Shown here in pieces: positions 11,614 to 52,594 of a stretch of DNA of 64,000 bases. A model generated the notes under the pieces. The model was given only the letters and a program-made list of their open reading frames with translations. It did not search any database and had not been told where the DNA came from. Source of the stretch: a virus; the IMG/VR virus record IMGVR_UViG_3300035698_006717, positions 41,410 through 105,409 of that record. One strand, 5' to 3'. The first letter of the stretch is position 1. Every line of letters begins with the position of its first letter. Both the position numbers and the translations under genes were made by a program.

Positions 11614-11842
11614 AATAGCTGCTAAATGGTATAAGTATATTGACGAACACGATAATTTGTATGGTCATGATATACCTGCTGTTAAATCCAATAAGTCAAG
11701 AAATCCACAAACGTCTGTTATACCAGCAACTCCAAAAGAGAAAGTGGTATACATTATCCGCTGCAATGTTTGTTGCCAGCTTGGTGATGCTGGAAGTGGT
11801 GCTGCCAAGATCTGTGACGCTTGCAGGAAATTAAAGTCATAA
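11591..11842 (+). CDS. Small zinc-ribbon protein
   Basis: 83 residues. A basic N-terminal half is followed by CNVCC and CDAC near the C-terminus, a probable ribbon. It overlaps the end of the RadC-like gene by 23 bases. Promoter copy 2 begins at its stop codon. Confidence 0.62.
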   Translation: MSKQRLNEIAAKWYKYIDEHDNLYGHDIPAVKSNKSRNPQTSVIPATPKEKVVYIIRCNVCCQLGDAGSGAAKICDACRKLKS

Positions 11843-16880: not shown

Positions 16881-17270
16881 ATGGCTTGGAATCCTAGTAA
16901 GAAGAAGTGGGAAAGAGATCCAGAACTTCCTGCCCGTAATACCCTTAAGTGGATAGGGCTTACGAGTGAAGAGAAATATGACGTTAATCTTCAGTTGGGT
17001 CATAGCTGGGGATTCCAGAACGTAATACGTGACGTAGAGAACGCCCCGAATGTTGCTATTGAGAAATACTGTGGAGCCTTTCGTATGGGATTTGGGAAGA
17101 AGATAACTATTGATCCTGTTATCCGTAACGCTCTAAGAAAAGAGTTGATGAAGCGTTGCCGTGAAGGAATCTATATCTTTGCCTCTCGTAATGAGAAAAG
17201 AAAGCTGAGACCTGTAGCTCGTATGCATGATGGAGCACCGACTGGTAAACTCGTTAAAGAATCTGCCTGA
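16881..17270 (+). CDS. Hypothetical basic protein
   Basis: 129 residues, basic, with WxPSKKKW at the N-terminus. GAGAGGAGC precedes the ATG. Arg codons CGT are frequent, unlike many neighbours (AGA), which hints at strong expression. It is followed by a G/C-rich terminator hairpin. Function unknown. Confidence 0.65.
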   Translation: MAWNPSKKKWERDPELPARNTLKWIGLTSEEKYDVNLQLGHSWGFQNVIRDVENAPNVAIEKYCGAFRMGFGKKITIDPVIRNALRKELMKRCREGIYIFASRNEKRKLRPVARMHDGAPTGKLVKESA

Positions 17271-19986: not shown

Positions 19987-20313
19987 ATGGAACTGCCGAA
20001 GAATGTTTGCGCATCGCTGGCTGATAAGAAGCTAATAGTTGATGAGACTAAGAAACTTCTTGCTTATGCGCATGTTGCTGATGATAACCTTACTTGGCGC
20101 TTCCTAGCGGAGATGTTGGAGAATTCCTGCCGAGCTAATGCTGTTATTCAACTAGATTATTCCGAAGATGGTAGAGAAGGAAATAAGACTTGGTATATTA
20201 TAGAAGGGATGGGGATGGGTGAGAAGTTCCTCTATATTGACTGTTCTAAGGCTGATACTCCTAATTGGGAATATTCTTGGAGTGCTATCTATGATTTGAG
20301 AGATGAGAACTGA
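19987..20313 (+). CDS. Hypothetical protein
   Basis: 108 residues. Helical first half, beta-rich second half (WYIIEGMGMGEKFLYIDCS). GAGGAG ribosome site. First gene after promoter copy 6. Not recognised. Confidence 0.63.
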   Translation: MELPKNVCASLADKKLIVDETKKLLAYAHVADDNLTWRFLAEMLENSCRANAVIQLDYSEDGREGNKTWYIIEGMGMGEKFLYIDCSKADTPNWEYSWSAIYDLRDEN

Positions 20314-20957: not shown

Positions 20958-21237
20958 AATTCAGATAGTCCCAAGAATAGGTGATATTGTTATAGTCAAT
21001 TACAAATATATGGTAGCTGATCAAGAGTCTAGTCAGTTTGTTGATTATATATTCAAGCACGTTGCTTTTGCTGGCGCTATTTCTTCATGGAGGTACTGCT
21101 CTACTAAGCCAAGCCTAAGTAGTGTTGTTGTTACATTTGGTACTGTTCAATTTAATTTCTCCGTCATCGAGCTTATTTGGACAGGACTCAATATAGGATC
21201 TGAAAATCCTCATTATGTTGAAGTAAACTACCTATAA
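20950..21237 (+). CDS. Hypothetical protein
   Basis: 95 residues from ATG 20950. A longer frame back to a TTG at 20878 would add a hydrophobic segment, but that is the shadow of the broken gene upstream. Beta-rich (IGDIVIVNYKYMVAD), unrecognised. Confidence 0.58.
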   Translation: MTKIQIVPRIGDIVIVNYKYMVADQESSQFVDYIFKHVAFAGAISSWRYCSTKPSLSSVVVTFGTVQFNFSVIELIWTGLNIGSENPHYVEVNYL

Positions 21238-21254
21238 TCTTCAAACTCCTAGGA

Positions 21255-21312
21255 AGCCCGTAGAGCTTAGACAAGATCTAACCCTATCCTAGTACGCCTA
21301 AACCCCTTTCAA
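21255..21312. repeat. Degenerate intergenic repeat, copy B
   Basis: AGCCCGTAGAGCTTAGACAA, then CCTATCCTAGTACGCC and TTTCAAG, in the same order as copy A at 15681-15740. The 21238-21376 gap otherwise holds only C- and TA-rich sequence (CCGCCTAGGAGC) and leads into promoter copy 7. Confidence 0.55.
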
Positions 21313-21376
21313 GACCGTAGCGAGCCGCCTAGGAGCTTGTAATAGGCTTGTAGGTATAGAACCGAACCCGTAAAAG

Positions 21377-21428
21377 AAAGACATTACTATTCAGTCAGTT
21401 CAGATATACCTTATACCTATACCCGAAC
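21377..21428 (+). promoter_or_regulatory. Phage promoter-like motif, copy 7
   Basis: AAAGACATTACTATTCAG, eight bases, then GATATACCTTATACCTATAC and CCGAACCG. Upstream of 21445. Confidence 0.78.
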
Positions 21429-23517: not shown

Positions 23518-23566
23518 AAAGTCATAATATATCAAGACTGAATAGTATACCTTTCTAATAGGCGGG
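23518..23566 (+). promoter_or_regulatory. Phage promoter-like motif, divergent copy
   Basis: AAAGTCATAATATATCAAGA, then TAGTATACCTTTCTAATA. It keeps the 5' word and the TATA block but has lost the ACTCGTCAG core. Upstream of 23599. Confidence 0.5.
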
Positions 23567-23598
23567 AATCCCCTAACCCCTACCCTAGGAGGAAGAAA

Positions 23599-23961
23599 AT
23601 GAACCATCTGTTGTTAGAAAAAGCTATTAAGGATTTGGCGGTAAAGCCTCTAGGTAAGTTCTCTGAAACTGAGGAAATGTTTAAGCGCTCCGGCTCTATA
23701 GGAGCTATTGCACTTGCACCCTACCTAAAAGGGGATAATGAATACTATGCTGACGAGGGAGACGAAGGCTTCTTGATGGAATGGGTTGAAATGTTTGATA
23801 AGCTAGAACCTCTAGCGGGTGCGGTTGAATTTACGGATACTGTTTCTGGTTGTGACGTAAATGTTAAGTGTTTCTTTGGAACTATACTTGTTAAGTGGAT
23901 AAATGAGGTAGGGGGAGTTTCCCTATCTGTTTTTGATATAGAAGCGTATATGGTTTTGTAG
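23599..23961 (+). CDS. Acidic protein, paralogue of 24596-24952
   Basis: 120 residues. It shares with the protein at 24596 the order PYLKGDNEYY, an acidic stretch, G-x-VEFTDT-x-SGC, VKCFFG-x-ILVKW and SLSVFDIE. Roughly half the residues look alike over the length. No known family. Each paralogue stands alone behind its own promoter-like element. Confidence 0.65.
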   Translation: MNHLLLEKAIKDLAVKPLGKFSETEEMFKRSGSIGAIALAPYLKGDNEYYADEGDEGFLMEWVEMFDKLEPLAGAVEFTDTVSGCDVNVKCFFGTILVKWINEVGGVSLSVFDIEAYMVL

Positions 23962-23967
23962 AAAAAG

Positions 23968-24020
23968 AAAGACATTACTCGTCAGCTAGTTCGGGTATAC
24001 CTTACCTCTATACCCGTAAC
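23968..24020 (+). promoter_or_regulatory. Phage promoter-like motif, copy 8
   Basis: AAAGACATTACTCGTCAG, eight bases, then GGTATACCTTACCTCTATAC and CCGTAACCG. Upstream of 24036. Confidence 0.8.
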
Positions 24021-24035
24021 CGTAGGAGGAAGAAG

Positions 24036-24371
24036 ATGAAAGGTTCTACTGTTTATGAAAGCCTAGAAGATCTAGTGAAGGTACTAGGTGATAGTAAAGA
24101 TTGCAAATACTTGTTAGAAGATATAAAGGAACGGCTTGAAAAGGCTTTGGGAGAAAGAAAACCTTATAGCGTATCTTGGGTAAGTACTGAAACTGATTAT
24201 GCTACTGCTACCGCTATGAGCTTGTTAGTCGATAGCAGAGAGGGTGATACTTGGGTAAGCGAAGAAGGTGAAGAATTCTATAAGCTGATTAATGCGGTTG
24301 ATGAAACTCTAATCGTTATAGAGATGAATATTCCTGGTATGAGTGATTACCTTCTAGTGACGTATATTTAA
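24036..24371 (+). CDS. Hypothetical acidic protein
   Basis: 111 residues; helical N-terminus, then alpha/beta. AGGAGGAAG ribosome site. It lies between the two paralogous acidic proteins, is similar to them in size and charge, but not clearly in sequence. Followed by a terminator. Confidence 0.63.
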   Translation: MKGSTVYESLEDLVKVLGDSKDCKYLLEDIKERLEKALGERKPYSVSWVSTETDYATATAMSLLVDSREGDTWVSEEGEEFYKLINAVDETLIVIEMNIPGMSDYLLVTYI

Positions 24372-24385
24372 AGGAGATCTGATCA

Positions 24386-24402
24386 GGGGGCTTGCCCCCT
24401 TT
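24386..24402 (+). terminator. Short G-run terminator hairpin
   Basis: GGGGG-CTTG-CCCCC followed by TTT, 14 bases after the preceding stop. Similar in style to the hairpins at 17279 and 20402. Confidence 0.7.
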
Positions 24403-24412
24403 CCCATTAACC

Positions 24413-24512
24413 AGCAAAAGTCAATGACCTGAGGAAAATTCAATGGCACAAATTCAACCCAGAAATTCAATGATCAAAACTCAATGATCAAAACTCAATC
24501 GTCAAAACTCAA
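24413..24512. repeat. Non-coding repeat zone II (TCAATGA array)
   Basis: TCAATGA or one-base variants occur at about 24422, 24440, 24468, 24482, 24496 and 24508. The last part is a 14-base tandem repeat (ATCAAAACTCAATG) in about three copies. Zone lies between a terminator and the promoter-like element at 24537. Confidence 0.7.
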
Positions 24513-24536
24513 TGACGAGTATTATATAGACAGGGC

Positions 24537-24582
24537 TAATCAAGCTTGATTAGAGTATATTACCCTTATACCCTAACCCCTC
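24537..24582 (+). promoter_or_regulatory. Promoter-like motif, 3' half only
   Basis: TAATCAAGCTTGATTA is a near-perfect dyad, followed by GAGTATATTACCCTTATACC and CTAACC, which matches the downstream half of copies 5-8. The ACTCGTCAG block is absent. Upstream of 24596. Confidence 0.55.
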
Positions 24583-24595
24583 TAGGAGGCAGAAG

Positions 24596-24952
24596 ATGAG
24601 ACAGCACGCGTTGGCTAGTGAGATTAAGAAAGCGGCGGGAGGTAAAGCACTAGGTGAGTTCTCCCTAGCGAACCATATGTTTGATACTTCGGACGTAGTA
24701 GTAGCAAAGGCTTTGACCCCCTTCCTTAAGGGAGATGACGAGTATTTCGTTAGCGACGATGAGGAGGCTTGGAAAGATGATTACCTGATTAGCTTTATTG
24801 ATATAATCCCTACGGCGGGAGAGGTACGGTTTGACGATACTGACTCTGGTTGCTCCGTACACGTTAAGTGCTTCTACGGACTAATCCTAGTACGTTGGAC
24901 TAATAGCGCAGGGGCTGATTCTATCTCTGCTTTTGATATACCTGAGTTATAG
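24596..24952 (+). CDS. Acidic protein, paralogue of 23599-23961
   Basis: 118 residues sharing PFLKGDDEYF, VRFDDTDSGC, VKCFYG-x-ILVRW and SAFDI with its paralogue 1 kb upstream. Base use already leans towards C-G- and T-A-rich words (GCGGCGGGAGG, CTAGCG) compared with the copy at 23599, a step towards the extreme bias beyond 25.6 kb. Function unknown. Confidence 0.65.
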   Translation: MRQHALASEIKKAAGGKALGEFSLANHMFDTSDVVVAKALTPFLKGDDEYFVSDDEEAWKDDYLISFIDIIPTAGEVRFDDTDSGCSVHVKCFYGLILVRWTNSAGADSISAFDIPEL

Positions 24953-24967
24953 AAAGGATCTGAATTT

Positions 24968-24999
24968 GGCTCTCCTACCCTAAGGAGAGCCTTCATTTT
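24968..24999 (+). terminator. Intrinsic terminator
   Basis: GGCTCTCC (24968-24975) pairs with GGAGAGCC (24984-24991) and is followed by TTCATTTT. It ends the unit of 24596-24952. Confidence 0.82.
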
Positions 25000-25000
25000 A

Positions 25001-25440
25001 CATACCATACGTCATTGGTTTGTACTGTATATGTAAGGACATATGGTAAGCCAATGAGTTGTTCTGTATATGTAATGACATATGTTAGAGCAGGTGATAG
25101 AGCATATGGTAAACCAATGACTATGTAATGTATGTAATAGCATATGGTAAGACAAGTGATAGGACATATGTAAAGAGCAAATGGTATGTGTGTGATACCA
25201 ATGTACTGTACTGTAAATGTAAGGACATATGGTAAACCAATGACCTGCTATATGTGTGTGTAATAGCATATGGTAGGACAAATGTAAGTTCAAATGATAT
25301 GCTATACATTGAGCTGTTATATGTAAATGTAATAGCAAATGTAAGGACATATGGTAAACCAATGACTATGTAATGGAATGTTAAACAAATTGTTAAACAA
25401 ATGTTGTGAAATGTTAAACCAGTGAAATAAATGTAAAATG
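25001..25440. repeat. Iteron-like array (CATATGGTAA / CCAATGA)
   Basis: CATATGGTA occurs at 25040, 25103, 25141, 25225, 25267 and 25348; four copies run on into CCAATGA. The stretches starting at 25103 and 25348 agree over about 28 bases. CATATG alone occurs again at about 25079 and 25163, and TGTTAAAC is repeated at 25379-25420. No gene is present. The array resembles origin or partition iterons. Confidence 0.75.
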
Positions 25441-25629
25441 TTTACCAAGTTGATATCTACCATATACCATTGGCTAGTTGATTTTATTTGAAACTGATAT
25501 CCTTGTTGCTGCTGTGATTAGCTTGATTTCACAATACACTGATTTCTTTTGGCTTTTCCCCGTTTTGCCATGATTTGGTAATTCAATGACTTTCTCGGAT
25601 TTCCGAAAAAAAGCGGAAAAATCCGAATT

Positions 25630-25684
25630 TACCCTAAATCGGGCGAATTACCCGAAGTCGGTATAAATACCCGAAAGCGGGTAG
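25630..25684. repeat. Left cluster of TACCCGA/TCGGGTA dyads
   Basis: Contains ACCCTAAATCGGG, TTACCCGAAGTCGG and TACCCGAAAGCGGGTA in tandem. The same words form the right cluster (27196-27298), 1.5 kb away at the other end of the island. Confidence 0.7.
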
Positions 25685-25937
25685 AAGGTACTATTTAAGG
25701 GGCTTAAATAGGGGCCGTTTAAGGGTTAAATACGTTTAGAGCCTAGGAAGGTTATTTAAGCGGATTAAGGGAAAACTAATTAACCGTATTAGGTAAATCT
25801 TCTAAGTCCTTTAAAATAGGGTAGTTACGGAGGGCGGGCTTTTAGGCGGATTCTATTTAAACGGTTAAAAAGATAGTTTAAGGTTTTTAAACTAGATAGA
25901 GATTCTAGTTTAAATCGCTGAAGGCGAATTAAATAAA

Positions 25938-25969
25938 ACGTCTTTTTTAGTACTATTAAGACGTTTTTT
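25938..25969 (+). terminator. Terminator-like hairpin in the island leader
   Basis: ACGTCTT and AAGACGT form a seven-pair stem followed by TTTTTT. It stands 140 bases before the gene at 26108, so it could be an attenuator or end a short leader RNA. The A run on the other side makes it usable in both directions. Confidence 0.6.
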
Positions 25970-26107
25970 AAGGCGACTGCTCGCGAGCAAATCTACTTAA
26001 GATATTAAGTTTTCCCCGATAGGGGCTTTAATCGAGTATATTTACTATAACGCCGCTACCCGCTACGGGCTACGGCGATAATCTATTACCCTTATAGGGG
26101 GTTTCTT

Positions 26108-26377
26108 ATGGTCTCGAATTCACTTACTCTAATAGCTTCGGTGACGAACGATCTACCTACTATATATAGGGTCGCTACGGTTAACCCCTTCGCCGCCCTA
26201 CTACCTATCGCCGCCATAGTCGCCGCCGTATACCTTATAGCTTTAACGGTCTACGTGGCGAACGACTACGCCGTTAATACTAATTTACTAAGAATAGAAA
26301 GAGAGGAGCCTATAACCTTAAGAAAGAGCTTTATAGTCGAATACAATAACGGAACTAATAAAACCGTAAACGCTTAG
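26108..26377 (+). CDS. Small membrane protein of the CA/TG-depleted island
   Basis: 89 residues. Residues about 26-52 (NPFAALLPIAAIVAAVYLIA and following) form one long membrane helix; the C-terminal part is charged. It has no Cys, Gln, His or Trp and only the initiator Met, as expected if CA and TG are avoided. The ribosome site is weak (AGGGGG). Two-gene operon with 26433. Function unknown. Confidence 0.6.
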   Translation: MVSNSLTLIASVTNDLPTIYRVATVNPFAALLPIAAIVAAVYLIALTVYVANDYAVNTNLLRIEREEPITLRKSFIVEYNNGTNKTVNA

Positions 26378-26432
26378 TCTATTACTTCGAATTCACCAAA
26401 TTTTTAAACCGTAAAAGAAAAGAGTTACTACT

Positions 26433-26960
26433 ATGACTACGAAAAAGAATACTACCGCCGCTCCCGTTTCTAAGATCGTTCGCCACGCCGCCGCCGCTCC
26501 CGTAGAGACTCCCGCCGCCGCTACCGTAGAGAAGGTTTCGCTACTATCGGAAAAGGATTTTATTTCTTACGCCGAAAAGAGCGGGACTCCCGCCCTAAAA
26601 TCTTTCGGAAACGTAGGGAGTCGAGTATACGCGAATCCTACCTTTTCGGGAACTACGGCCTTTATTATAGCGGCTCTTTCTACCGTCGATACCAAACGTA
26701 CTAGTTTTACGGTCGCCGATTTCGATTCGGGTATACGGTCGATGAAAACGAAGGAGAACTGGGAACGACTCGACGCTATTTTTAATACGTTCCGTTCCCG
26801 TTTCGCGAGTAACCGTAAAGGCGAAAAACCTTCCCTCGCGAGCAAGTATAAAAGTCCCGTAAAATCTTTACGGACTAGCGGAGTATATAAAGCGTTCGAC
26901 GTTTCCGCTATCGGGACTCCCGAACTAAGAAAGTCCTTCGGATTCGCGGCGGGGAAATAG
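26433..26960 (+). CDS. Ala/Lys/Ser-rich protein of the CA/TG-depleted island
   Basis: 175 residues. The N-terminal 35 residues are Ala-, Pro- and Lys-rich and probably disordered, followed by a basic, mostly helical domain with FNTFRSRFASNRKGE. There is no Cys or Gln, one His, one Trp and one internal Met; codons such as GCA, CCA, TCA, CTG, TTG and GTG are nearly absent. In its 528 bases I count six CA or TG. A perfect terminator follows. Possibly DNA-binding from its charge; not recognised. Confidence 0.65.
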   Translation: MTTKKNTTAAPVSKIVRHAAAAPVETPAAATVEKVSLLSEKDFISYAEKSGTPALKSFGNVGSRVYANPTFSGTTAFIIAALSTVDTKRTSFTVADFDSGIRSMKTKENWERLDAIFNTFRSRFASNRKGEKPSLASKYKSPVKSLRTSGVYKAFDVSAIGTPELRKSFGFAAGK

Positions 26961-26990
26961 ATCGTTCGCCACCAATAGGCGGATAATATA

Positions 26991-27017
26991 GGGTAGTCTT
27001 CGGACTACCCTTTTTTT
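26991..27017 (+). terminator. Perfect intrinsic terminator
   Basis: GGGTAGTC-TTCG-GACTACCC followed by seven T. The UUCG tetraloop makes this an exceptionally stable hairpin. It ends the plus-strand arm. Confidence 0.92.
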
Positions 27018-27195
27018 ATACCTTCCCCGCTCCCTTCCTTCCTTCGTTCGTTCGCCAGACTCCCTCCCTTCCTATAATACCCTAAATCGCCGCTACGGGA
27101 CTTTCGCCCTCATAGGTATAGCTAGGATAGGGTATATCTTCCCCGCCTTATACGGGCCTTCTACGGGCCTTATATAAGCTATTTAGAATATACCT

Positions 27196-27298
27196 TAAAT
27201 CGGGTAGAATACCCGAATTTATATAGTCGGGCTTTTTACCCGAAGTCGGGTAGAATACCTTATCGGGTAAAATACCCGAAGTAGGGTAATATACCCTA
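27196..27298. repeat. Right cluster of TACCCGA/TCGGGTA dyads
   Basis: CGGGTAGAATACCCG, TACCCGAAGTCGGGTA, TCGGGTAAAATACCCGA and TAGGGTAATATACCCTA follow each other within about 100 bases. All are dyads with 2-3 central bases. The vocabulary equals the left cluster at 25630-25684. Confidence 0.75.
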
Positions 27299-27436
27299 AT
27301 AATTTAAGCGCTTAAGGGGTAGGGCGTATGCGAACGATTTTATTTTCTAGGTAGCCCTACTTTGGCACCCAGCACACACCGTGAACATTTTTGCCAAGAT
27401 TACCATGCTCAGAATATTTCAGGCAATACTACAAAT

Positions 27437-30453: not shown

Positions 30454-31536
30454 TTACGAAGTCGCCCTTGGCGATTTGGGCCGAACGACGTGAGCCGTAA
30501 CATTTCTCTTTTGTTCCGCCTTATCAGGATAAGTCTTTTGGTTCTTCACAATAGATTTGGTTTGTACCCGTCTATTCTTTACTAAAATTCTAAAATACGG
30601 GCACTTTCCATTGATTGATAGATCCTTTTCATCATTCCCTTTTCTGAACTTAACTATTTCAAATTGCTTTGGATTGAACTTATGGAGAAATGTTATTGGC
30701 ACACCTATAAACCCTTTGTAGTCTGATGGTATATCCTTTGTCTTATTAACATTTATACCATCATAGTTGTCATACTTGGGATATTGAGCTTCATTTCCGT
30801 AGTATCTTTTGGTGAGTGGAATATCTTCGTGCCGTTTAAACGTATCTAAGTTAGTCAACCATAGACAATTGTTTGGAGAAACGATTCTGTTCCCAAAACT
30901 ATCTATCCGAGCTTCTGTTCCATAAAGTTCATAGTGTTCGGGAACAATAAAACCAGAGACCCCTCTACCAATGTTTATTCCTAACCATGCTTTGTTTTCT
31001 TTTATAAGCTTGAAATCTTCCTTATAAGTTATTGCATTGATATTCCCAATTATCAAGAACTTTTTATGGTACTTGACCAATTGAGCTACGTATTCTCTGA
31101 ATAATGAAAATGGAGGGTTAGTAACTACAATGTCAGACTGTTTCAGTAGTTCAATGCTTTCTGAACAACGGAAGTCACCATCCCCAGCAAAGTGAATAAT
31201 GTCGGTTGAGCTTGGTTTGCTTCTTTCACCCTCCGTACCAGTATATTCAAAGTAGAAACCATTTTCATCTTCCGCGGTGTTAAACAAATCTCTTACTTGT
31301 TCCCTGTAACAAGCCGCTATCAATTTCTTGAGACCTAATTCCTCAAAGTTTGAAGCAAAGTAACTATAAAAGTTACTAATTTGAGGGTCATCGCAATTGC
31401 AAAAGACCACCTTGTCTTTAAAGTGGCTCTTATAATGCTTCAATTCACTTTCTATATCTGAAAGTTGCGTGTAGAACTCATCGCTTTTTGATTTCTTAGC
31501 TTTTTGTAATAATCTGTTTGTTGCTTTCCTTGTCAT
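30454..31536 (-). CDS. Adenine-specific DNA methyltransferase, EcoRI family
   Basis: 360 residues. It matches the EcoRI methylase family: SDEFYTQ (18-23), CNCDDPQ (46-52), AGDGDFRC, the adenine-N6 catalytic motif NPPFSLFREYV (140-150), and the following FLIIGN-x-NAITYKE. This family methylates an adenine in GAATTC or related sites. No restriction gene is adjacent, and GAATTC sites occur in the window (for example 61 and 3914), so it is an orphan, probably protecting phage DNA. The last 20 residues are basic. Confidence 0.85.
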   Translation of the reverse strand: MTRKATNRLLQKAKKSKSDEFYTQLSDIESELKHYKSHFKDKVVFCNCDDPQISNFYSYFASNFEELGLKKLIAACYREQVRDLFNTAEDENGFYFEYTGTEGERSKPSSTDIIHFAGDGDFRCSESIELLKQSDIVVTNPPFSLFREYVAQLVKYHKKFLIIGNINAITYKEDFKLIKENKAWLGINIGRGVSGFIVPEHYELYGTEARIDSFGNRIVSPNNCLWLTNLDTFKRHEDIPLTKRYYGNEAQYPKYDNYDGINVNKTKDIPSDYKGFIGVPITFLHKFNPKQFEIVKFRKGNDEKDLSINGKCPYFRILVKNRRVQTKSIVKNQKTYPDKAEQKRNVTAHVVRPKSPRATS

Positions 31537-35426: not shown

Positions 35427-36104
35427 TCACTCTCCTATGAAGTCTCTAGCATATACAGATTTGTGAGCATGCACACCGTCCTCAGTACCTATATGCTGAA
35501 CATATGAAGGCATAGTACAGTACATACTCCAATTTTGACTCCTAGCTTGCTTGCTCATGGTATACTCCCAACCACTTGGTTCGTGTAAAGTCTCTATGCA
35601 ATCTCTACAGAATTCCCTAGTGATTAGACAACCAAATATCCCAATACTTAATTTCTTCAGTACACGGATAGTCCCTTCATTATTAAGATTGATAGATTTA
35701 GATGCTTTGTGACCTTTATAATTGTATACTGATATTGCTCCAAGAAATTTATCCATAGCCTTAGATCTGTTGTACCTATCAATCAATACATTATACCATT
35801 CGCTATTAAATATCATATCAGAATTTAGATTGATAACGCCTTCTAAGTTTTTATGGATACTAAACATCTGAGCAAGAGAGTTCCTAGTTCTGCTTGAGCA
35901 GTTAGACCTAACTTGCATATTCATCTCAGCAGGAGGTATCTTCAGCTTAGATAGAATTTCCATTAGCTTAGTCTTATCATCAGATCCGTCATCAAATATG
36001 TACAAAGGTGGTAAGTTAGTAGATTTGTTTAGAGAGTCTATTGTCCTTTCTAATAGATCAAATCTATTACAAGTTATCAGTATTGCTGCAAAAGAAGGAG
36101 TCAT
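35427..36104 (-). CDS. Glycosyltransferase family 2
   Basis: 225 residues. GT-A fold: ILITCNRFDLLERTIDSL (start), FDDGSDD, then NLNSDMIF in the DxD position, and a late acidic GWEY motif. Likely transfers a sugar from a nucleotide donor to the glycan made by this cluster. It starts four bases inside the next gene (ATGA). Confidence 0.8.
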   Translation of the reverse strand: MTPSFAAILITCNRFDLLERTIDSLNKSTNLPPLYIFDDGSDDKTKLMEILSKLKIPPAEMNMQVRSNCSSRTRNSLAQMFSIHKNLEGVINLNSDMIFNSEWYNVLIDRYNRSKAMDKFLGAISVYNYKGHKASKSINLNNEGTIRVLKKLSIGIFGCLITREFCRDCIETLHEPSGWEYTMSKQARSQNWSMYCTMPSYVQHIGTEDGVHAHKSVYARDFIGE

Positions 36105-36925
36105 AACATCCCCAACATGTCTTTAATGTTTCTGATTACCACAGATACCTGCGGCTGCCAATTACAATCATCTAATACCCTACACTTAGTCCCAAATGGA
36201 TTCCAAGATTTTTCATAGCGGTGTTTGTTGTTTCCTTTTGCTCCACCCCATCTTCTGCTGTCAGTCCATACTAAATGTTTAGTTCCGCATAAACTGGCAA
36301 GATGCATAGGGCCGCTACTTGGGCCTATGACAAGCCTAGAACTAGCCATCATATCTGTTATAGTCTCCAAAGGCTTTCCCAAAAAGTTATCAGTATGAGG
36401 TATCCATACTGCATTCTTCTGAGTACCTATGCAAGCCATCTTTAACTTGCTCTTGAAGTATTCTGTAACTTCGTTCCATTTGGCTATAGGCCAATCTCTG
36501 TTCTGCGTCTTACGCTTATTGCAACTTCTTGCGTGTATTATTAGATCATACTTATCCTTCTTAGATTTGATTCCAAGTTTAAGGAAGTTCTGATCTTCAT
36601 GCCTCATAGCAGTAGTCTCTTTAGTAGGTCTGAACCATATTAGCTTACAACCTTTGTATTTATCTTGTATAAGTTTCCATTCTCTTTCTGAAAATCTTGG
36701 ATCACCTAATCCTCTAGTCATCCAACATTCGCAATTCTTATCATACTTAGAAGGAATAATCTCATCGGTAAAATCTTTGAATAGTAGTTCAGTACCAGGC
36801 AAAGTGGCAACAACTACTTTGTGATACTTATTGCTAGATGCTTCCATCCTACAACGTGCGTGGTACCTCATTAAGAGCCAACCGAACTCTCCTACCCAAG
36901 GCCCACATAGGAGTACTTTCTTCAT
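36101..36925 (-). CDS. GT9-like (heptosyltransferase-like) glycosyltransferase
   Basis: 274 residues, GT-B fold. GPWVGEFGWLLMRY at the N-terminus, a central WPIAKWNEV segment and the donor-site GPSSGPMHLASLCGTKHLVW, the hallmark of GT9. Such enzymes add heptose or related sugars to lipopolysaccharide cores. Substrate here is unknown. Confidence 0.7.
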   Translation of the reverse strand: MKKVLLCGPWVGEFGWLLMRYHARCRMEASSNKYHKVVVATLPGTELLFKDFTDEIIPSKYDKNCECWMTRGLGDPRFSEREWKLIQDKYKGCKLIWFRPTKETTAMRHEDQNFLKLGIKSKKDKYDLIIHARSCNKRKTQNRDWPIAKWNEVTEYFKSKLKMACIGTQKNAVWIPHTDNFLGKPLETITDMMASSRLVIGPSSGPMHLASLCGTKHLVWTDSRRWGGAKGNNKHRYEKSWNPFGTKCRVLDDCNWQPQVSVVIRNIKDMLGML

Positions 36926-37909
36926 CTAACTGTTTCTCCATTTCTTAACAGTTTCAATAGCATTTACAATACCTTTGGCTGCAACTTCCAAAGACAAGTT
37001 CTCTAGATAGTATTCTCTAGGTGAAAAACTATCTATATTGTTAAGCATATAATCTACTGCATCCCATAAAGTATCCTCAGTTGCTATTATGCCAGTTTTA
37101 TCATTAATGTACTTTTCAGTCCAAAATCTTACGCTATCTAAAACAACTATAGGTAGATTACAAGCTAACATTTCAGGTATAACTCTAGGACAACTATCTA
37201 CAGAGGCTCTAGAACACACGATACCACACTTGCATTTAGAGTACTCCTTAGCTATATCTTTCCGTAGAACGCGGTGACATACCACATTTGTCGGCTTCTT
37301 ACAGGGTGATACGTTACCTAAGTTAAGTATATTAAGCCTACAACGTGCTGTAGAGTACACAAGCTCGTGTCCTTTTATCTTGTATTGGCTTCCGTTGGCA
37401 GGAAAGCATACGTCATATACCTTCTCGCGCTCATAGGGAACCATAATATTATCAGGAGCTGGCTTTATGAATAAGATTGCAGGAATATCTGGGAATAACT
37501 GTTTGCAATTAGTAACCTGAGAAACAGAATCTTGTAGTATCAAGTCATAATCTGTAAATCCTTTTTGAGGCAGATACCTCTTACCTGCTCCATAGTAAAC
37601 CTTGAAAGCATCTGGGAACCTCTTGAGAATTTTGTGGTATTCTGAGAAGCCGCCTCTACAGAATATAACATCTGGAGTAAAGTTCAAAGACCATTGCTTG
37701 AAATCTGGTACTCTAATTTCTGCAAAGTTATTTTTAAATTCATGATACCGATCACCTCCCCAATATGCTACAACTCCAGCATCTTTTGGGCCAACCATAG
37801 AATACAGAAGTTGAGTCCAAACATCATCACAATCTTCAACTTGGCTGAATATAGTTTCAGATGGATTCCTATCTGTAGGGTGCTTACCTCTAAGCATTAA
37901 ATAAATCAT
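36926..37909 (-). CDS. GT-B glycosyltransferase (GT4-like)
   Basis: 327 residues. The C-terminal half has a CGIVCSRAS...RVIPEMLACNLPIVV segment, equivalent to the E-x7-E donor site of GT4 enzymes, and an N-terminal Rossmann-like half (DVIFCRGGFSEYHKI). Part of the run of transferases. Confidence 0.65.
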   Translation of the reverse strand: MIYLMLRGKHPTDRNPSETIFSQVEDCDDVWTQLLYSMVGPKDAGVVAYWGGDRYHEFKNNFAEIRVPDFKQWSLNFTPDVIFCRGGFSEYHKILKRFPDAFKVYYGAGKRYLPQKGFTDYDLILQDSVSQVTNCKQLFPDIPAILFIKPAPDNIMVPYEREKVYDVCFPANGSQYKIKGHELVYSTARCRLNILNLGNVSPCKKPTNVVCHRVLRKDIAKEYSKCKCGIVCSRASVDSCPRVIPEMLACNLPIVVLDSVRFWTEKYINDKTGIIATEDTLWDAVDYMLNNIDSFSPREYYLENLSLEVAAKGIVNAIETVKKWRNS

Positions 37910-38648
37910 GGTTCCCTCTTATCCTTGACTCAACAAGTGCTATATCTTCAACAACATCTACTGCGTGAGAATTAGTGTGCACTGGTAACATGTACACCTT
38001 ATACCCATTTTCCAAAGGTCTTAACATACAAATATCTTCTGCCTTCTCTATATAGCCTTTTTCACAGTCTCTGAATAGATCAATAATTGCCGCTCTCTTG
38101 AATACATAAACGCACACCTGCTTAAGAGGATTGCTATACACATTATTTCTATTATATGGTAACGGAGTCCTGCTCATATATATGAGTTCATTTATATGGT
38201 TGACTAATACATGTATGCAATTAGATGTACGGAAATACATATCATCTTTAACTGTAGTGTAACAATTCAGCAAGTGATAACTATTCCTTATTTCTTTGAA
38301 GGACATAATAGCATACTCTATAAGAGAAGTCTCAAGTATAGGTTCGTCACCTTGAACATTTACAATTATCTCCTCATCTAATTGCAATGCAGCTTCTGCT
38401 ACTGCTTCATTACCAGTAGTGTTATTACCAGTAGTCATTCTTGCTTCAACTCCACGCTCTCCCCAAAACCTTTCAACGTGAGATACTATCTCTGAATTAG
38501 GAGTAGCAACATACACATTAGTATCTTTTACTTTCAAGCAGTTCTCTATTACCATATCAATCATCATTTTACCATTTATAGCTGCAAATGGTTTCCTAGG
38601 GAAACGCTTGCTTTCTAACTGAGCTGGAATTACAATTGCAGTATCCAT
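37890..38648 (-). CDS. CMP-Kdo synthetase-like cytidylyltransferase
   Basis: 252 residues. IPAQLESKRFPRKP (7-20) is the nucleotide-binding loop, TGNEAVAEAA (78-87) and NVQGDEP (97-103) are the family's diagnostic motifs. KdsB activates 3-deoxy-manno-octulosonate with CTP. The phage enzyme may activate Kdo or another ulosonate for the neighbouring transferases. Length is normal for KdsB. Confidence 0.8.
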   Translation of the reverse strand: MDTAIVIPAQLESKRFPRKPFAAINGKMMIDMVIENCLKVKDTNVYVATPNSEIVSHVERFWGERGVEARMTTGNNTTGNEAVAEAALQLDEEIIVNVQGDEPILETSLIEYAIMSFKEIRNSYHLLNCYTTVKDDMYFRTSNCIHVLVNHINELIYMSRTPLPYNRNNVYSNPLKQVCVYVFKRAAIIDLFRDCEKGYIEKAEDICMLRPLENGYKVYMLPVHTNSHAVDVVEDIALVESRIRGNHDLFNA

Positions 38649-39616
38649 TATACCACTCTATTCTTTAAAGGGTTGTCATTAAAGAAATCTATTAATGCTT
38701 TGGCAGCACCAGATTCCATATCTAGTCTACTCTGTTCAGTACAAGATCCAAGGTGAGGGGTAAGATAAGCATTCCCCATAGTAGCCAACTTATCTCTGTA
38801 AGGTTCTTCCATAAATGAATCAATAGCTACTGTGGCTTTAGGGGAATCATTAAGCCACATAAATAGATCCTCTTCATTTATTATACCGCCTCTTGACATA
38901 TTGAGTAGCCGTACATTATCCTTCATACTGTACAGTTCTTTTTTGGTCAGGTAATCATAATTGCTTATTATCTGATCCTCAAGAGGAATGTGAATAGTTA
39001 TAACATCACATTTTGCCAGTATATCTTGCTTGCTTGCTCTTTTCCATTCTGGCATAGGATTCAGAGTCCCAGTAAATTCTAAGTCGTGAACTAGCAAATC
39101 GCAGTCCATGCTATTTAGAATTTTGTATACTATTTTGCCAATACGCCCATAACCTATTATCCCAATTGTACAGTTCTTAAGCTCCCGCCCTATGTATCGG
39201 TTCCACTTGTCATTACTCATATCTTCGCTGACATTCTGTACCTTACGGAGCATATTTAGCATCTGACATATAGTAAGTTCTGCAACTGCGTTAGATGGAG
39301 CCTCTGGAGTATATGCTACCACTATACCGCGCCTCTTGCACTCATCCAAATCTACAGAATCTAATCCAATACCTACTCTTGATATTATCTGTAGATTCTT
39401 ACAAATATCTAAAGCCTCTATATCCCAATTTTCAGTACCTGCTATTACAGCAGCAGGGTTAGCTGACCTTAACTCTTGTAAGAATTCTTCCCTATTGTAT
39501 TTACGCTTTTGGGAGTTCATCTTGAAACAAGTAATGCCGCCATCCTGCAATATCTTGATAGGCTTTTTATTTGTATGCCCAAATGGGTAGGTAGTGATAA
39601 TTGTAGTAGCTATCAT
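38648..39616 (-). CDS. D-2-hydroxyacid dehydrogenase (3-phosphoglycerate dehydrogenase-like)
   Basis: 322 residues. NAD-binding GYGRIG in GIIGYGRIGKIVY, substrate-side RVGIGLDSVDL, catalytic Arg in NMSRGG and His in PHLGSCTE. The ACT domain of full SerA is absent. Next to an aldolase and a CMP-sugar synthetase it probably supplies or uses a 2-keto acid in sugar-acid synthesis. Confidence 0.8.
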   Translation of the reverse strand: MIATTIITTYPFGHTNKKPIKILQDGGITCFKMNSQKRKYNREEFLQELRSANPAAVIAGTENWDIEALDICKNLQIISRVGIGLDSVDLDECKRRGIVVAYTPEAPSNAVAELTICQMLNMLRKVQNVSEDMSNDKWNRYIGRELKNCTIGIIGYGRIGKIVYKILNSMDCDLLVHDLEFTGTLNPMPEWKRASKQDILAKCDVITIHIPLEDQIISNYDYLTKKELYSMKDNVRLLNMSRGGIINEEDLFMWLNDSPKATVAIDSFMEEPYRDKLATMGNAYLTPHLGSCTEQSRLDMESGAAKALIDFFNDNPLKNRVV

Positions 39617-40308
39617 GGTAGTAAGTTCTCCAATTCTCCAATTGAGTTTCTTATCATTAGTGCATCAATACTGAATGCAACAAGACCGTACCTTCTATAC
39701 TTAAGATAATACTCGTTAGTGTCTTCAACTAAATGGTATCCTCTTTTTCCTTCTGGTATTATATCAGCAAATGTTCTCATAGCTCTTCTGAACCCTTGAG
39801 TATCAAAATCTCCTGCTTTGCCATATGATTTAGATAGGTCATATGGCCCAACCATAAAGCAGCTTATATTATCACAATTCTCTAAAGCAACTAAGTTGTC
39901 TATTGCTATATTGCTTTCTATTTGTATCATTTGCAGAGGTTCTTTATTGCAAAGCTCCATTCTTCCCCATCTATTCTCTCTACAGTACCCAACTCCTCTT
40001 GAAGGGTATTTACATATTCTGTTAATCTTATGTATCTGAGGCACACTATCAATATTGGCAAAAATTACTCCATCAGCTCCTGCATCTAAACACATCCTTA
40101 CTAGCCTCTCATCTATTGTAGGAACTCTAATAATAGGAGAGCAGTCGCAACGGCTAATTATTTGTATACAGTTGAATATAGTTTCATCATTGAAGCATCC
40201 GTGTTCAAGATCAAGAACTACTCCATCATATCCAATAGCACTTGCAAGCATTTCAGAGATTAATGGAGAAGGTATTTGTTGCCAAAGAACCTTCATTTGT
40301 TTAGACAT
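39613..40308 (-). CDS. HpcH/HpaI-family aldolase
   Basis: 231 residues, TIM-barrel type. GYDGVVLDLEHG, IIRVP, AGADGVIFANI, QIES and MVGPYDLSKSYG follow the family order, including the metal-binding Glu. Members condense pyruvate with aldehydes, or split the products, giving 2-keto-3-deoxy acids. Its stop and start overlap the neighbours, consistent with a tight three-gene set with 38648 and 37890. Confidence 0.8.
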   Translation of the reverse strand: MSKQMKVLWQQIPSPLISEMLASAIGYDGVVLDLEHGCFNDETIFNCIQIISRCDCSPIIRVPTIDERLVRMCLDAGADGVIFANIDSVPQIHKINRICKYPSRGVGYCRENRWGRMELCNKEPLQMIQIESNIAIDNLVALENCDNISCFMVGPYDLSKSYGKAGDFDTQGFRRAMRTFADIIPEGKRGYHLVEDTNEYYLKYRRYGLVAFSIDALMIRNSIGELENLLP

Positions 40309-40955
40309 AGAACACTCCCATCATAGAATTTTGAATAGATAGTTGGAGTTATAATCTTGAATTTTATTCCTGCTTTATCTATATTCTGTAAGACTCTGTA
40401 TATGAAGTGATCTTTCTTCTTTTCCCAATCCATATTATCAGAATCAGTAAATCCTTCTCCATAACAATGCTGAGTACCTTCTTGAGGATTAGAATAACCA
40501 TCTGCACCTATAACATATATATTCTTAGCTCCCATAAGATGAGCTATCATTATTGCCAAGTTGCCACCTATTCGGTAGAATCCTTGTATCCTATTATTCT
40601 TGTATTCTATAGGTTCATTCTTATTGTGGAAGTCATCAGTATACGGAATAGTACACTTACTATTTGATTTATCTTCAACACACTTTAGAGTATCAGAGAA
40701 TAGATGGCTTCCTAGTAGTAATGTAGAAGATGGTTGTATGCATTTGTGAAAACGCTTCAGCCTTTTATTGTTTACCCATAAATGATAATGAGGTTTATAG
40801 AAATGAGTCATCTTATTGATGCCAATAACTACTGGATTAACCTTTCTTGACATCCAATCCTTTATCTTATCATCATATAGACGTACTGAATTAGCAGAGC
40901 CATATATTAGAAAATCTCTGCCCCTATGGTAATTAATTAGTTCTGAGAATTTCAC
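40293..40955 (-). CDS. DUF115/sialyltransferase-like (GT42-like) protein
   Basis: 220 residues. LIYGSANSVRLYD near the N-terminus resembles the G-x-G-x-S donor loop of GT42 and DUF115 proteins. Then GINKMTHFYKPHYHLWVN, GGNLAIMIAHLMGAKNIYVIGADG and HCYGEGF follow. If it is a sialyltransferase-type enzyme it would use a CMP-sugar, fitting the CMP-Kdo-synthetase-like gene nearby. Assignment is moderate. Confidence 0.5.
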   Translation of the reverse strand: MKFSELINYHRGRDFLIYGSANSVRLYDDKIKDWMSRKVNPVVIGINKMTHFYKPHYHLWVNNKRLKRFHKCIQPSSTLLLGSHLFSDTLKCVEDKSNSKCTIPYTDDFHNKNEPIEYKNNRIQGFYRIGGNLAIMIAHLMGAKNIYVIGADGYSNPQEGTQHCYGEGFTDSDNMDWEKKKDHFIYRVLQNIDKAGIKFKIITPTIYSKFYDGSVLCLNK

Positions 40956-41736
40956 CTTCGCCCCATATCATATCTGTTAATTTTTTCACATCTGGATCAA
41001 ATACTATACTTCTCCAAGTTTCATCATTTTCGTATAATTTCCATCTATTCAGCACATCCATTTCCTGAGCATTACCATCAAATTGTTTACCATTAAAGCT
41101 ACTACCTATTCCATAATTAGGAATTTTATTCAAACCTCTATCAGTATGCTTTAGGCCAAGCATATTGGATATTGCTTTTCTGGATGATTCACTACGGAAC
41201 CAATTATTAAAGTCTATGCAAACAGAATACTCAGGCAAACTATCCTCATAACCTAAATAGCTGTTATAATATTGCTTCAGCAGTCTTTTATATTTACCAT
41301 TCACAATCTGACTGTGTACATAGTTCAGCCTACTAGCTGTCATATTATATGGATCACGGATAGGAAGAACAAAGCATTTTATCTTACTCTTACCATAATT
41401 ATGGTTTGCTATCCTATCCATATTATCCTTAGTAATTTCCACTTCCTCATATCTAGTTATGAGGCATTTCCTATCAGCATATGGATTAGTATCCAAACTA
41501 AGCTGAGGCATCTTATAGTTGTATATACTATGCTCTTGTTTCTTCCTGAATATCTCAGGCTTAAGCGCAAATGTCTTAGGATCAGTATTTAGAAGATGAA
41601 CCTCTCCATCTCCAAAATGATTGATAACCCAATTCATTATGGCATTACTACCGCTACGCTTCATACATAGGAAAATGAATTCATATTCATTCTCAATCTG
41701 AGATAAACGATCTCTGTTAAATGTCACATGTGACAT
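40933..41736 (-). CDS. Sulfotransferase-like protein 1
   Basis: 267 residues from the ATG at 41736, which overlaps the previous stop (TAATG); an upstream in-frame ATG lies inside that gene. KRSGSNAIMNW (26-36) corresponds to the 5'-phosphosulfate loop and RDPYNMTASR (127-136) to the 3'-phosphate motif of PAPS sulfotransferases. It may sulfate the glycan. Host PAPS would be needed. Confidence 0.62.
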   Translation of the reverse strand: MSHVTFNRDRLSQIENEYEFIFLCMKRSGSNAIMNWVINHFGDGEVHLLNTDPKTFALKPEIFRKKQEHSIYNYKMPQLSLDTNPYADRKCLITRYEEVEITKDNMDRIANHNYGKSKIKCFVLPIRDPYNMTASRLNYVHSQIVNGKYKRLLKQYYNSYLGYEDSLPEYSVCIDFNNWFRSESSRKAISNMLGLKHTDRGLNKIPNYGIGSSFNGKQFDGNAQEMDVLNRWKLYENDETWRSIVFDPDVKKLTDMIWGEGEILRTN

Positions 41737-42194
41737 TATACGCTCCACTTGCATATTTGTACAGGACATTCTATATTGAGAGCTATACAACAAGCTATTC
41801 TATGATGTCCTTCCCATATCTCACCACTAGCATATTTGGCAAATGGAACCAAAGGAGCCTCTAAAATAATAACAGGATTAGTAACTCCATTATTCAGTAT
41901 ATCTCCATACAAAGCTCTGAATTTGTCAATCTTATCTTCAATCCACTTATGCTTCCTACCATACAGCTTCTGCATCTTATAGTATGGCCCACTAAACCTA
42001 TTCATTAGTAGAGCTACGTGAGGAGAGTATATCATTCTCAAAGGTCTTTTAACATGAGATGTTGTACAAGATAAATATGCTTGATATCTATCGGGATTAT
42101 ATTGAGCACAAATATTCCTCAAGTCAGATGATTCTATAGTGCGCTCTGAAATAACTTCCAACTTAACTCTTTTGCAAAATCTATTGAAGTTCAT
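41736..42194 (-). CDS. ParB/sulfiredoxin-like domain protein
   Basis: 152 residues. The C-terminal part EIWEGHHRIACCIALNIECPVQI resembles the DG-x-HR-x2-A motif of ParB-like nuclease folds; the N-terminal half is unrecognised. In this setting it could be a kinase- or modification-related ParB-fold enzyme rather than a partition protein. Confidence 0.45.
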   Translation of the reverse strand: MNFNRFCKRVKLEVISERTIESSDLRNICAQYNPDRYQAYLSCTTSHVKRPLRMIYSPHVALLMNRFSGPYYKMQKLYGRKHKWIEDKIDKFRALYGDILNNGVTNPVIILEAPLVPFAKYASGEIWEGHHRIACCIALNIECPVQICKWSV

Positions 42195-42445
42195 CCTACC
42201 AAGTAATCCTTTCCCATACGTTTTATGACAGCCTTTTCATATTCTGGATTTTCCTCCCACCAGTCTTTATCAAATTCCTTGCTATTCTCATATAACTTCT
42301 TTGACATCTTCTTAGCCATCTTTTGGCATTCTGAAAGGCGCTTCCTAACTTTTAGATCATGTCGAGTATCTGCTTGGTGCATATCATTAACTTCTCTGAG
42401 GACTTCGCATAAAGTCCTTTTGTTGTTTGCAAATCTCATGCTCAT
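42191..42445 (-). CDS. Small basic helical protein
   Basis: 84 residues, helical and lysine-rich, ending EKAVIKRMGKDYL. Overlaps both neighbours by four bases. Unknown. Confidence 0.58.
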   Translation of the reverse strand: MSMRFANNKRTLCEVLREVNDMHQADTRHDLKVRKRLSECQKMAKKMSKKLYENSKEFDKDWWEENPEYEKAVIKRMGKDYLVG

Positions 42446-43089
42446 CTGTTCATAAACCTTTCATAAGTTTCTGAAAATGGTAGAAGACCAAACTTAGATC
42501 CACTTTTCCATAAACAATATGCTAGACTAATCTGATCTCTGTATGTATACTTCCGTATCTCTTCCCACCACATTTCCATCAAAGAAGTCACTCTTGCATT
42601 ATTTCTTCGTAACATTATGCCAGGAGCAAATAGGCCAAATTCTTTAGGAAATCCATCTGTACCATAATGAAACAGTTGCTGACTTATTACAGAAGGGGAT
42701 GCTATACCTTGGTTGATAACATAATCACCTTCACTGTAAGCACAATTCCTCCTATTGTGTTTCATTACAGCTATGTCATCAAATCCTAGATGAATTCTTA
42801 GGAATGAATCAAGATTAGTCTTAATTGTGAATCTAGCATCAAGGAAAAGAGAGTAGTTAAACTTTGGCAAGTAATTATGCTGCAATATCTTGATCTTTCT
42901 AGATAGCTTCTGATTGGTTTGATTCTTATCTTGTATTTCAATAAGCTCCCATTTGCTATCCTTCCTTATCTTCAGATTCTTATTCCTGCTATAGAAGCAT
43001 ATGTGCTTCCAATCTTTATTCTCTGCAATTGGTTCATGCAGTTCATATTCATTACCTATTATGGTAGTGTACACAATCTTATCTGCCAT
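42442..43089 (-). CDS. DUF616/TOD1-like glycosyltransferase
   Basis: 215 residues. YTTIIGNEYELHEP, FLDARF, MKHNRRNCAYSEGDYV, FGLFAPGIMLRRNN and YRDQISLAYCLW match DUF616 (TOD1/MUCI70-type) in order. Plant members act in glycan synthesis; bacterial and phage members are found in surface-glycan clusters. FLDAR probably holds the metal-binding acidic residue. Confidence 0.72.
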   Translation of the reverse strand: MADKIVYTTIIGNEYELHEPIAENKDWKHICFYSRNKNLKIRKDSKWELIEIQDKNQTNQKLSRKIKILQHNYLPKFNYSLFLDARFTIKTNLDSFLRIHLGFDDIAVMKHNRRNCAYSEGDYVINQGIASPSVISQQLFHYGTDGFPKEFGLFAPGIMLRRNNARVTSLMEMWWEEIRKYTYRDQISLAYCLWKSGSKFGLLPFSETYERFMNR

Positions 43090-43651
43090 GCTCTAGGCTC
43101 CAAGTGTGAAGTTTTAATTTTCTGCGCTCCAGTTGAGAAATCAATATATTGTGTTGTTCTTCTTCCATCCTTATCTTCTTCCAGTGCCAAGCTACATGTA
43201 GCTCATTAATCCATTCTATAGTACCATCACCAATCATTTTATTAAGAACTCTATATTCGGCCCCTTCTATATTCAGCTTGCATACAATATGGTCAGTAGG
43301 CTTGCAGTGTTTTTTAATCCATTCGCTGAAATCAATACATTCAACTTTCATATCGTTAGTTTTATGATGATGAATTATCCTCTTGTTCTCTAACAGAGAG
43401 CTTGACTCACTATACTGATTGACTCCTGTCTTAAGAGTTTTGATACAATTAGTATCCCAAACAGCTTTTCCAATAAACTCTACCTGACCACCATATCCTT
43501 TCTTTCTGATGTTCTTTCTCATCTTTAACATTATCTCAGAATTACACTCAAAAGCATATATCATATATTTGCAAGTATCATCACAGTTCTCAATAAAGTG
43601 AATGGTAGAGTTGCCCTTCCAAGCTCCGCAGTCTAGAAATATTTTTCTCAT
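43079..43651 (-). CDS. FkbM-type methyltransferase
   Basis: 190 residues. FLDCGAWKGNSTI is the SAM loop, AFECNSE the acidic ribose-binding strand, and LNIEGAEY the FkbM hallmark (usually DVEGAE). FkbM enzymes often O-methylate sugars in glycan clusters. Confidence 0.75.
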   Translation of the reverse strand: MRKIFLDCGAWKGNSTIHFIENCDDTCKYMIYAFECNSEIMLKMRKNIRKKGYGGQVEFIGKAVWDTNCIKTLKTGVNQYSESSSLLENKRIIHHHKTNDMKVECIDFSEWIKKHCKPTDHIVCKLNIEGAEYRVLNKMIGDGTIEWINELHVAWHWKKIRMEEEQHNILISQLERRKLKLHTWSLEHGR

Positions 43652-43654
43652 AAC

Positions 43655-44197
43655 CTACTTCCACATCAGCTGACGGTTACATTTTCTGACAATAGTGATG
43701 CCATAGTAGAATGGCAGAGTAACTATTTCACAATCATTCTTACAAGTATTCCTTATCTCTGAAGCAGTCTCCCAACAATCATTGCAGTGATCATCAATAA
43801 ACTCTTTTGATGGAGGGTAAGTATCATGAAGAAGAATTATACCATTATCACTAACATGAGGAAAAGCGTTAGCAAAGTCTAATAGGGAGGCATCCTTCTT
43901 ATGCTGGGCATCTATAAATACCAAATCAAATTTCAAGTCATTAGGTATCTCCATAAAGAACTGGTTAGTACTTCTACCATAATATATGCCATTAGTAGCT
44001 CTCATATATTTTTTGTTCACAGCTTTTATTTCTACCGCATATGCTGTCTTTGCAAAAGGGGCTACTACGTTGAAACAATTACAAGCCCTTACTCCTAATT
44101 CAAGATAGTTCTCTAATGCGCCTGCTTCCATCAGTCCTTCTGCAATAGTCTTAACTACCCTAATGTGACTATTCTTATCAAATGGCATCTTCATCAT
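43655..44197 (-). CDS. Class I SAM-dependent methyltransferase
   Basis: 180 residues. YLELGVRACNCFN (SAM loop), YAVEI, DLVFIDAQHKKDASLLDF and ILLHDTYPPS, as in Methyltransf_24-type proteins. Probably modifies a sugar of the cluster's product. Two adjacent Met codons make the exact start uncertain by two residues. Confidence 0.7.
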   Translation of the reverse strand: MMKMPFDKNSHIRVVKTIAEGLMEAGALENYLELGVRACNCFNVVAPFAKTAYAVEIKAVNKKYMRATNGIYYGRSTNQFFMEIPNDLKFDLVFIDAQHKKDASLLDFANAFPHVSDNGIILLHDTYPPSKEFIDDHCNDCWETASEIRNTCKNDCEIVTLPFYYGITIVRKCNRQLMWK

Positions 44198-52339: not shown

Positions 52340-52594
52340 AGTAATCCCCTTTCGTAACTTAAAGATAATAAAAAAAGTCTTTGTTACCTAGGTTTTTTAA
52401 CGGTTGTATTTAATAACTATCATGAAGTATTTTTCTAGGGAGAGTGTTTTATATATATTAAGGTCACGCTTCCGAAAAACTCGTAAGAAAACCCTATAGG
52501 GGGTGTTTTGTCTATTATATAGTTTTTAGGGGGTAATAGGAAAGATTATAAGAAACATAATCTAAATAAAATTGGGGATTACTAAGGGGAAATT
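52340..52594. promoter_or_regulatory. Divergent intergenic region between the two arms
   Basis: 255 bases with no gene, very AT-rich. Candidate signals for the plus strand are TATATATATTAAGG near 52450 and TTGTCTATTATATAG near 52510. ACCC-TATA-GGG (about 52490-52505) is a short dyad. The minus strand has TTTTTTTATTATC near its start. Promoters for both arms must lie here, but the exact ones cannot be fixed by eye; the motif of the 9.5-25 kb section is absent. Confidence 0.5.

Follow-up and report, generated by a model that had tools for sequence, protein, structure and literature searches.

Why should a short stretch of phage DNA be almost free of the dinucleotide steps CA and TG, and where did such DNA come from? 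The question is raised by an island within a 64,000-nucleotide stretch of DNA (the window; positions 41410-105409 of the 105,409-bp IMG/VR record of an uncultivated bacterial virus), the coordinates of which are used throughout. A first-pass annotation, counting by eye, had put the number of CA and TG steps at about 22 in 1,770 bases, with a depletion that starts and stops abruptly. The exact count for 25591-27360 is 13 CA and 9 TG, where ~210-220 would be expected from the segment's own base use, and the odds ratios are 0.11 (CA), 0.09 (TG), 1.75 (CG) and 1.53 (TA). To score segments, we classed each dinucleotide step as CA/TG or not and calculated a log-likelihood ratio in nats. The maximum-scoring segment is 25588-27362 (1,775 bp; CA+TG at 0.10 of expectation), with a score of 158-165 nats; the runner-up in the 105-kb record (52338-52593) reaches 12.1 nats and the top segment in Markov simulations of the whole record 8.8 nats. 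Both edges are abrupt, the change taking no more than a few tens of bases, as had been claimed. Using 500-bp windows, the CA+TG odds are 0.05-0.18 inside the island, and the lowest value fully outside it in the 105-kb record is ~0.65. The minimum odds are 0.51 for 9,356 windows from 120 other viral loci and 0.50 for 7,199 windows from 48 bacterial loci; i.e. none of the ~16,500 windows pooled from ~170 other viral and bacterial contigs falls below 0.50. Odds as low as those of the island occur in no other segment of this phage, and the island is unique in the record. We can thus confirm that the depletion is real, unusually strong and far beyond chance.

The depletion had also been said to hold in coding and non-coding sequence alike, and this is borne out by the counts in each part: 3 CA/TG sites in the 517 bp of the 5' non-coding part, 6 in the 270 bp of ORF1, 6 in the 528 bp of ORF2 and 5 in the 385 bp of the 3' non-coding part. 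The described reshaping of the encoded proteins is equally correct, with no Cys or Gln and only one His and one Trp in 264 residues. At codon boundaries, there are 2 CA/TG sites in ORF2 and 2 in ORF1, where codon permutation predicts 34.5 and 18.4, respectively; none of 5,000 permutations was as low as observed. Since the loss extends across codon boundaries, the pressure is on the DNA itself, and protein or codon preference is ruled out as the cause. That CA and TG are equally lost points to double-stranded DNA as the level of action. As is looked for in restriction avoidance, the target word is depleted on both strands and in coding and non-coding DNA.

The features of the island and of its immediate surroundings are collected in Table 1. 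Folded as DNA, the left end (25588-25700) has an energy of -20 kcal/mol (z = -2.9 relative to shuffles). The two arrays have the direct repeats D1, D2 and D8 in common and are set in from the edges of the island, by 36 bp on the left and by ~60 bp on the right. The structured leader had no match in Rfam, and promoter-like matches in the island are no commoner than in shuffles. ORF1 is likely to be a real gene: 1.8% of Markov simulations based on the island contain an ORF of at least 89 aa. Its model (mean pLDDT 70) has one long predicted helix (residues 31-86). ORF2 is real by length, with no ORF of at least 175 aa in 1000 such simulations; its AlphaFold model was unusable (pLDDT 37).

Table 1. 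Features of the CA/TG-poor island and the adjoining phage DNA (window coordinates)
Feature	Position	Strand	Details
Upstream gene block	23540..24952	+	Three ORFs, two paralogous; CA-poor on coding strand
Flanking phage repeat region	25000..25545		Degenerate repeats rich in CATATG and CCAATGA; adjoins island
Hairpin at left end	25595..25626		TCGGATTTCCG...CGGAAAAATCCGA
Left array, ~19-bp repeats TACCCGAA-TCGGGTA	25624..25690		3 copies and one related hairpin; TRF period 19
Structured leader upstream of ORF1	25930..26080	+	Several hairpins; 25940-26080 folding z = -2.6
ORF1, small hydrophobic protein	26108..26377	+	89 aa; GRAVY 0.5; no Cys, His, Gln or Trp
Motif copy 1	26142..26153	+	TGACGAACGATC
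Motif copy 2	26256..26267	+	TGGCGAACGACT
ORF2, basic protein	26433..26960	+	175 aa; pI 10.2; no Cys or Gln; one His, one Trp
Motif copy 3	26474..26485	-	TGGCGAACGATC; gives the single His codon of ORF2
Motif copy 4 (shorter)	26760..26768	+	TGGGAACGA; gives the single Trp codon of ORF2
Motif copy 5	26960..26971	-	TGGCGAACGATC
Intrinsic terminator closing the two-gene unit	26990..27018	+	AGGGTAGTC-TTCG-GACTACCCT-TTTTTTT
Motif copy 6	27046..27057	-	TGGCGAACGAAC
Right array, 19-bp-type repeats and hairpins TCGGGTA-N-TACCCGA	27186..27300		TRF period 19; DNA folding z = -5.0
Motif copy 7	27329..27339	+	TGCGAACGATT

Few CA/TG sites survive. Seven of the 22, about a third, are the TG of a repeated motif, TGGCGAACGATC, with the pattern TG(RC)GAACGA(TC); its copies occur in either orientation and lie both within the two ORFs and in non-coding DNA. 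All seven GAACGA in the island have a TG no more than 4 nt upstream, compared with 6 of the 13 found elsewhere in the record, and one CA/TG-containing 9-mer occurs four times in the island, where the maximum in 1000 simulations was two. The other survivors include two start codons, one internal Met codon, two sites in GAATTCAC, and the repeated words CACCAA and CTCGCGAGCAA. A pattern in which only functional sites are spared would be the expected outcome of purifying selection against CA/TG, balanced by use.

The island also differs in composition from the phage that carries it. Its GC content is 44% (phage, 38%) and the fraction of C at third codon positions is 0.29-0.31 in its ORFs; most phage genes have 0.11-0.16, and the ORF at 24596 has 0.22. 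CG is avoided by the phage (0.49), a deficit absent from the island: combining CA/TG suppression with the dinucleotide preferences of the phage predicts 80 CG where 149 are observed. This combined model fits 61 nats worse, which is the margin against a loss in place from phage DNA. The island sits between a rightward terminator (24968-24991) and a leftward terminator (27467-27442) of convergent phage units and, in the manner of a moron, combines a composition unlike the phage with its own transcription unit and terminator between phage operons. These compositional differences and the site between convergent terminators support a foreign cassette. Foreign origin was one of three causes offered by the first-pass annotation, and it is well supported by the GC content, third-position C, CG counts and a motif confined to the island. 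The marks of a transposon are missing: no transposase was found in the island, no terminal inverted repeats were seen at its edges, and the ACTTT at both edges was rejected as a target duplication, being at chance level (0.46).

The phage DNA around the island has peculiarities of its own. Directly to its left lies the 500-bp stretch (25042-25541) with the highest CA/TG content in the record (odds 1.76, no CG). For the ORFs of the upstream block, synonymous resampling gave z values of -3.1, -3.2 and -3.3 for CA, and of -3.0 for TG in the last ORF only, where CG is also raised; the block is possibly an older relative of the island, or may reflect mere codon preference. The small genes at 16881-17270, 19987-20313, 23599-24371 and 24596-24952 are depleted in CA, mostly not in TG, on the coding strand. 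Such CA-poor phage ORFs may be highly expressed genes with a codon preference, or older and partly ameliorated imports. Several have a common leader of the form CATNACTCKTCAG...TATACCC. The leader CATNACTCKTCAG...GGTATA..TTACC..TATACCCGAACCGATAGGAG occurs at 11838, 16819, 18733, 19925, 21380 and 23973, ahead of small rightward genes, and is probably a phage promoter and ribosome-site module. A further word, TTACCCTTATA, is present in two phage gene leaders and 22 bp before ORF1. The genes at 23599-23961 and 24596-24952 encode paralogous proteins of 118-120 aa (44% identity) that had no match in the collections searched.

What could have removed the CA and TG steps? The first-pass annotation had remarked that CG and TA are plentiful. 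Their counts are high, but this is not a separate feature: with CA and TG fixed at their observed values and all else independent, 144 CG and 208 TA are expected, and 149 and 213 are observed. The excess is thus a result of CA/TG loss and there is no second anomaly, albeit with an imperfect fit (chi-square 28 over the 14 kept dinucleotides; homopolymer steps high, AG/CT and GA/TC low). A second proposed cause was strong C-to-T mutation in CpA context. Repeated change of this kind could come from a process like fungal repeat-induced point mutation (RIP), a deaminase or methylation. RIP, too, leaves DNA poor in CA/TG and with a higher TA/AT index (PMC2621366). Measured by the RIP indices, the island is an extreme case: TA/AT is 1.79 and (CA+TG)/(AC+GT) is 0.12, the values for a heavily RIP-affected Stagonospora repeat family being 1.75 and 0.49 (PMC2621366). 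However, RIP lowers GC, enriches TA and breaks genes, whereas the island has high GC and CG, TA as expected and open genes, the 175-aa ORF2 among them. Equilibrium simulations of C-to-T mutation at CpA gave TA at 1.18-1.31 and CG at 0.85-0.91 of the suppression-only expectation, with GC driven down; with symmetric CA/TG removal both residuals were 1.0, and the island has 1.02 (TA) and 1.04 (CG). As TA does not exceed what suppression alone gives, as GC exceeds that of the phage (an argument that assumes a phage-like start) and as both ORFs are open when CAA, CAG and TGG would have turned into stops, a C-to-T mutator is disfavoured, and we consider it decidedly unlikely. A mutator that put a random base in place of the C would be consistent with the TA and CG residuals but would lower GC. 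Selection could instead have acted on RNA, transcripts avoiding CA/UG because of a ribonuclease active during infection; in the neighbouring phage genes, CA is scarce on the coding strand alone, which is what an RNA-level effect predicts. In the island, though, CA and TG are equally depleted, on either side of the terminator and in the non-coding arms, and the seven motif copies retain TG/CA in both orientations within and outside genes, which makes an RNA-level cause highly improbable.

Two other readings concern the origin of the DNA and not the agent. The mild CA-poverty of the upstream phage genes and the TTACCCTTATA shared by ORF1 and phage leaders count against a foreign cassette, as do the lack of a donor, homologue or second island, the lack of terminal inverted repeats and the chance level of ACTTT; the first two could mean that the island is native. 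It would then have evolved in place from phage DNA, CA/TG having been locally selected away, as the extreme of its neighbours' CA-poverty. Consistent with this are the ORFs starting at 16881, 19987, 23599, 24036 and 24596, all CA-poor (z from -3.1 to -3.7 relative to genome codon usage), the last of which is TG-poor too, with CG at 1.07; TTACCCTTATA before two phage genes as well as ORF1; and an intergenic segment (21220-21381) that looks similar. As these ORFs may reflect either codon preference or old imports, evolution in place stays alive as a rival. Nevertheless, the absence of the phage CG deficit, the different third-position pattern and the abrupt change at the edges argue against it, and the other CA/TG-poor patches reach no more than 12 nats, so that we judge it unlikely. 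Alternatively, a piece of an unrelated CA/TG-free replicon may have been joined to the phage contig during assembly. The record is from a metagenome, the edges are sharp and no island homologue was found in any relative or collection searched; but the junctions share no long sequence that an assembler could use, only 5-mers at chance level, both flanks belong to the same phage with its convergent operons, and DNA free of CA/TG would need an explanation anyway. We regard a chimera as very unlikely.

Searches with the two proteins and the DNA for islands of the same signature yielded no homologue, donor or second island in viral contigs, bacterial genomes, or phage and plasmid records. For the proteins, the collections also included PDB, Pfam and PHROGs, and no relative of either was found, nor in ~1,200 genomes of three phyla. 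ORF1 had no Pfam or PHROG match, and ORF2 only a weak one (phrog_33561, E 0.0099). One match at E 3.7e-4, in the A/T/P-rich N-terminus, lies in a locus with normal CA/TG and was not counted as a relative. With blastn, the island DNA gave two 37-bp matches, one to a terminator look-alike in a Synechococcus phage and one in a Salinibacter plasmid, neither of them CA/TG-poor. When the collections were scanned for the motif AGATCGTTCGCCAC and the hairpin TCGGGTA-TACCCGA, every locus recovered had normal CA/TG. Four phage relatives (77% portal identity), with coverage limited to the right half of the window, have no CA/TG-poor island. Just one of them (G001) extends close to the locus; it has none in the 1.9 kb left of the shared gene, its contig ending before the convergent junction.

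We consider it probable, though some way from assured, that the island is a foreign two-gene cassette from a replicon long under strong selection against CA/TG steps. Such a cassette (a moron or small mobile element) would have been inserted between the convergent units of an otherwise ordinary tailed phage, bringing its own two-gene operon, its terminator and the hairpin-repeat arrays near both ends. Its arrival would be recent, from a replicon the DNA of which had long been selected against these steps. A two-base target gives each site little weight, so this selection must have been long and effective. The selecting agent would most likely be a protein that acts on DNA and belongs either to the host of that replicon or to the element; candidates are a nuclease, a modifier or a binding protein with a TG/CA core, acting at the CA/TG step. 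Functional sites such as TGGCGAACGATC, the start codons (ATG) and a few recurrent words would have been kept despite the selection. Avoidance of an agent acting on CA/TG, the remaining cause offered by the first-pass annotation, is, we infer, the best account of the island's source; no agent, donor or second island was found in the collections above, and the agent is accordingly named only as a candidate. More tentatively, and rather doubtfully, there may be a prokaryotic mobile-DNA lineage whose whole genome has been purged of CA/TG by an undescribed enzyme or binding protein, the TGGCGAACGATC copies being recognition or protection sites and the phage having captured a piece. As the island is one instance only, a general claim awaits a second island or a donor.

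The island resembles several known systems in part. Like phage morons, it is a small cassette with its own terminator and foreign composition between convergent transcription units; morons, however, are recognised by odd composition in general, whereas the promoter of the island is only putative and homologues were not found in the collections searched. We know of no moron with near-total loss of one dinucleotide. The two ~19-bp repeat/hairpin arrays near its ends recall iteron origins and transposons with subterminal repeat arrays, but neither a replication protein nor a transposase was found in the island, and terminal inverted repeats and a significant target duplication are lacking too. 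In vertebrates and RNA viruses, CpG is likewise a single dinucleotide under strong suppression, there genome-wide. That suppression is driven by methyl-cytosine deamination or host sensing; here the dinucleotide is another, and neither driver is applicable to CA/TG in a bacterial virus. The avoidance of restriction targets by plasmids and phages is again a composition tuned against a DNA-acting enzyme, and is strongest in small mobile elements (PMC10359461). The targets analysed there are 4-6 bp long and often palindromic (PMC10359461), whereas that of the island is two bases, non-palindromic and cut to 10%, an effect of another order. One dinucleotide at a tenth of expectation, in working genes and spacers, implies a strength of pressure for which CpG methylation and RIP are the only other examples, and the literature searched contains no account of such a process directed at CA/TG in bacteria or their viruses. 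If the source replicon were found, it would reveal a new DNA-targeting system with two-base specificity or a new DNA-level constraint, and would provide a simple compositional tracer for its DNA in other genomes.

Elsewhere in the window, the secondary CA/TG-poor patches are mild and were not retained as further islands. The second-strongest, at 52338-52593, is an AT-rich divergent intergenic region. The patch at 62101 is poor in CA/TG in a relative too and is therefore ordinary. An EcoRI-type adenine methyltransferase (target GAATTC) is encoded at 30454-31536 on the minus strand (PF13651, E 1e-128); no other DNA-modifying enzyme was recognised near the island. The record has 41 GAATTC sites (25.7 would be expected with even base use), two of them in the island, both as GAATTCAC; we claim no significance for these counts and do not link the methylase to the island. 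Further right, 35427-51041 is a long leftward gene block in which several genes look, by eye, like glycosyltransferase or sugar-modification genes, and its gene order is largely conserved with the relatives.
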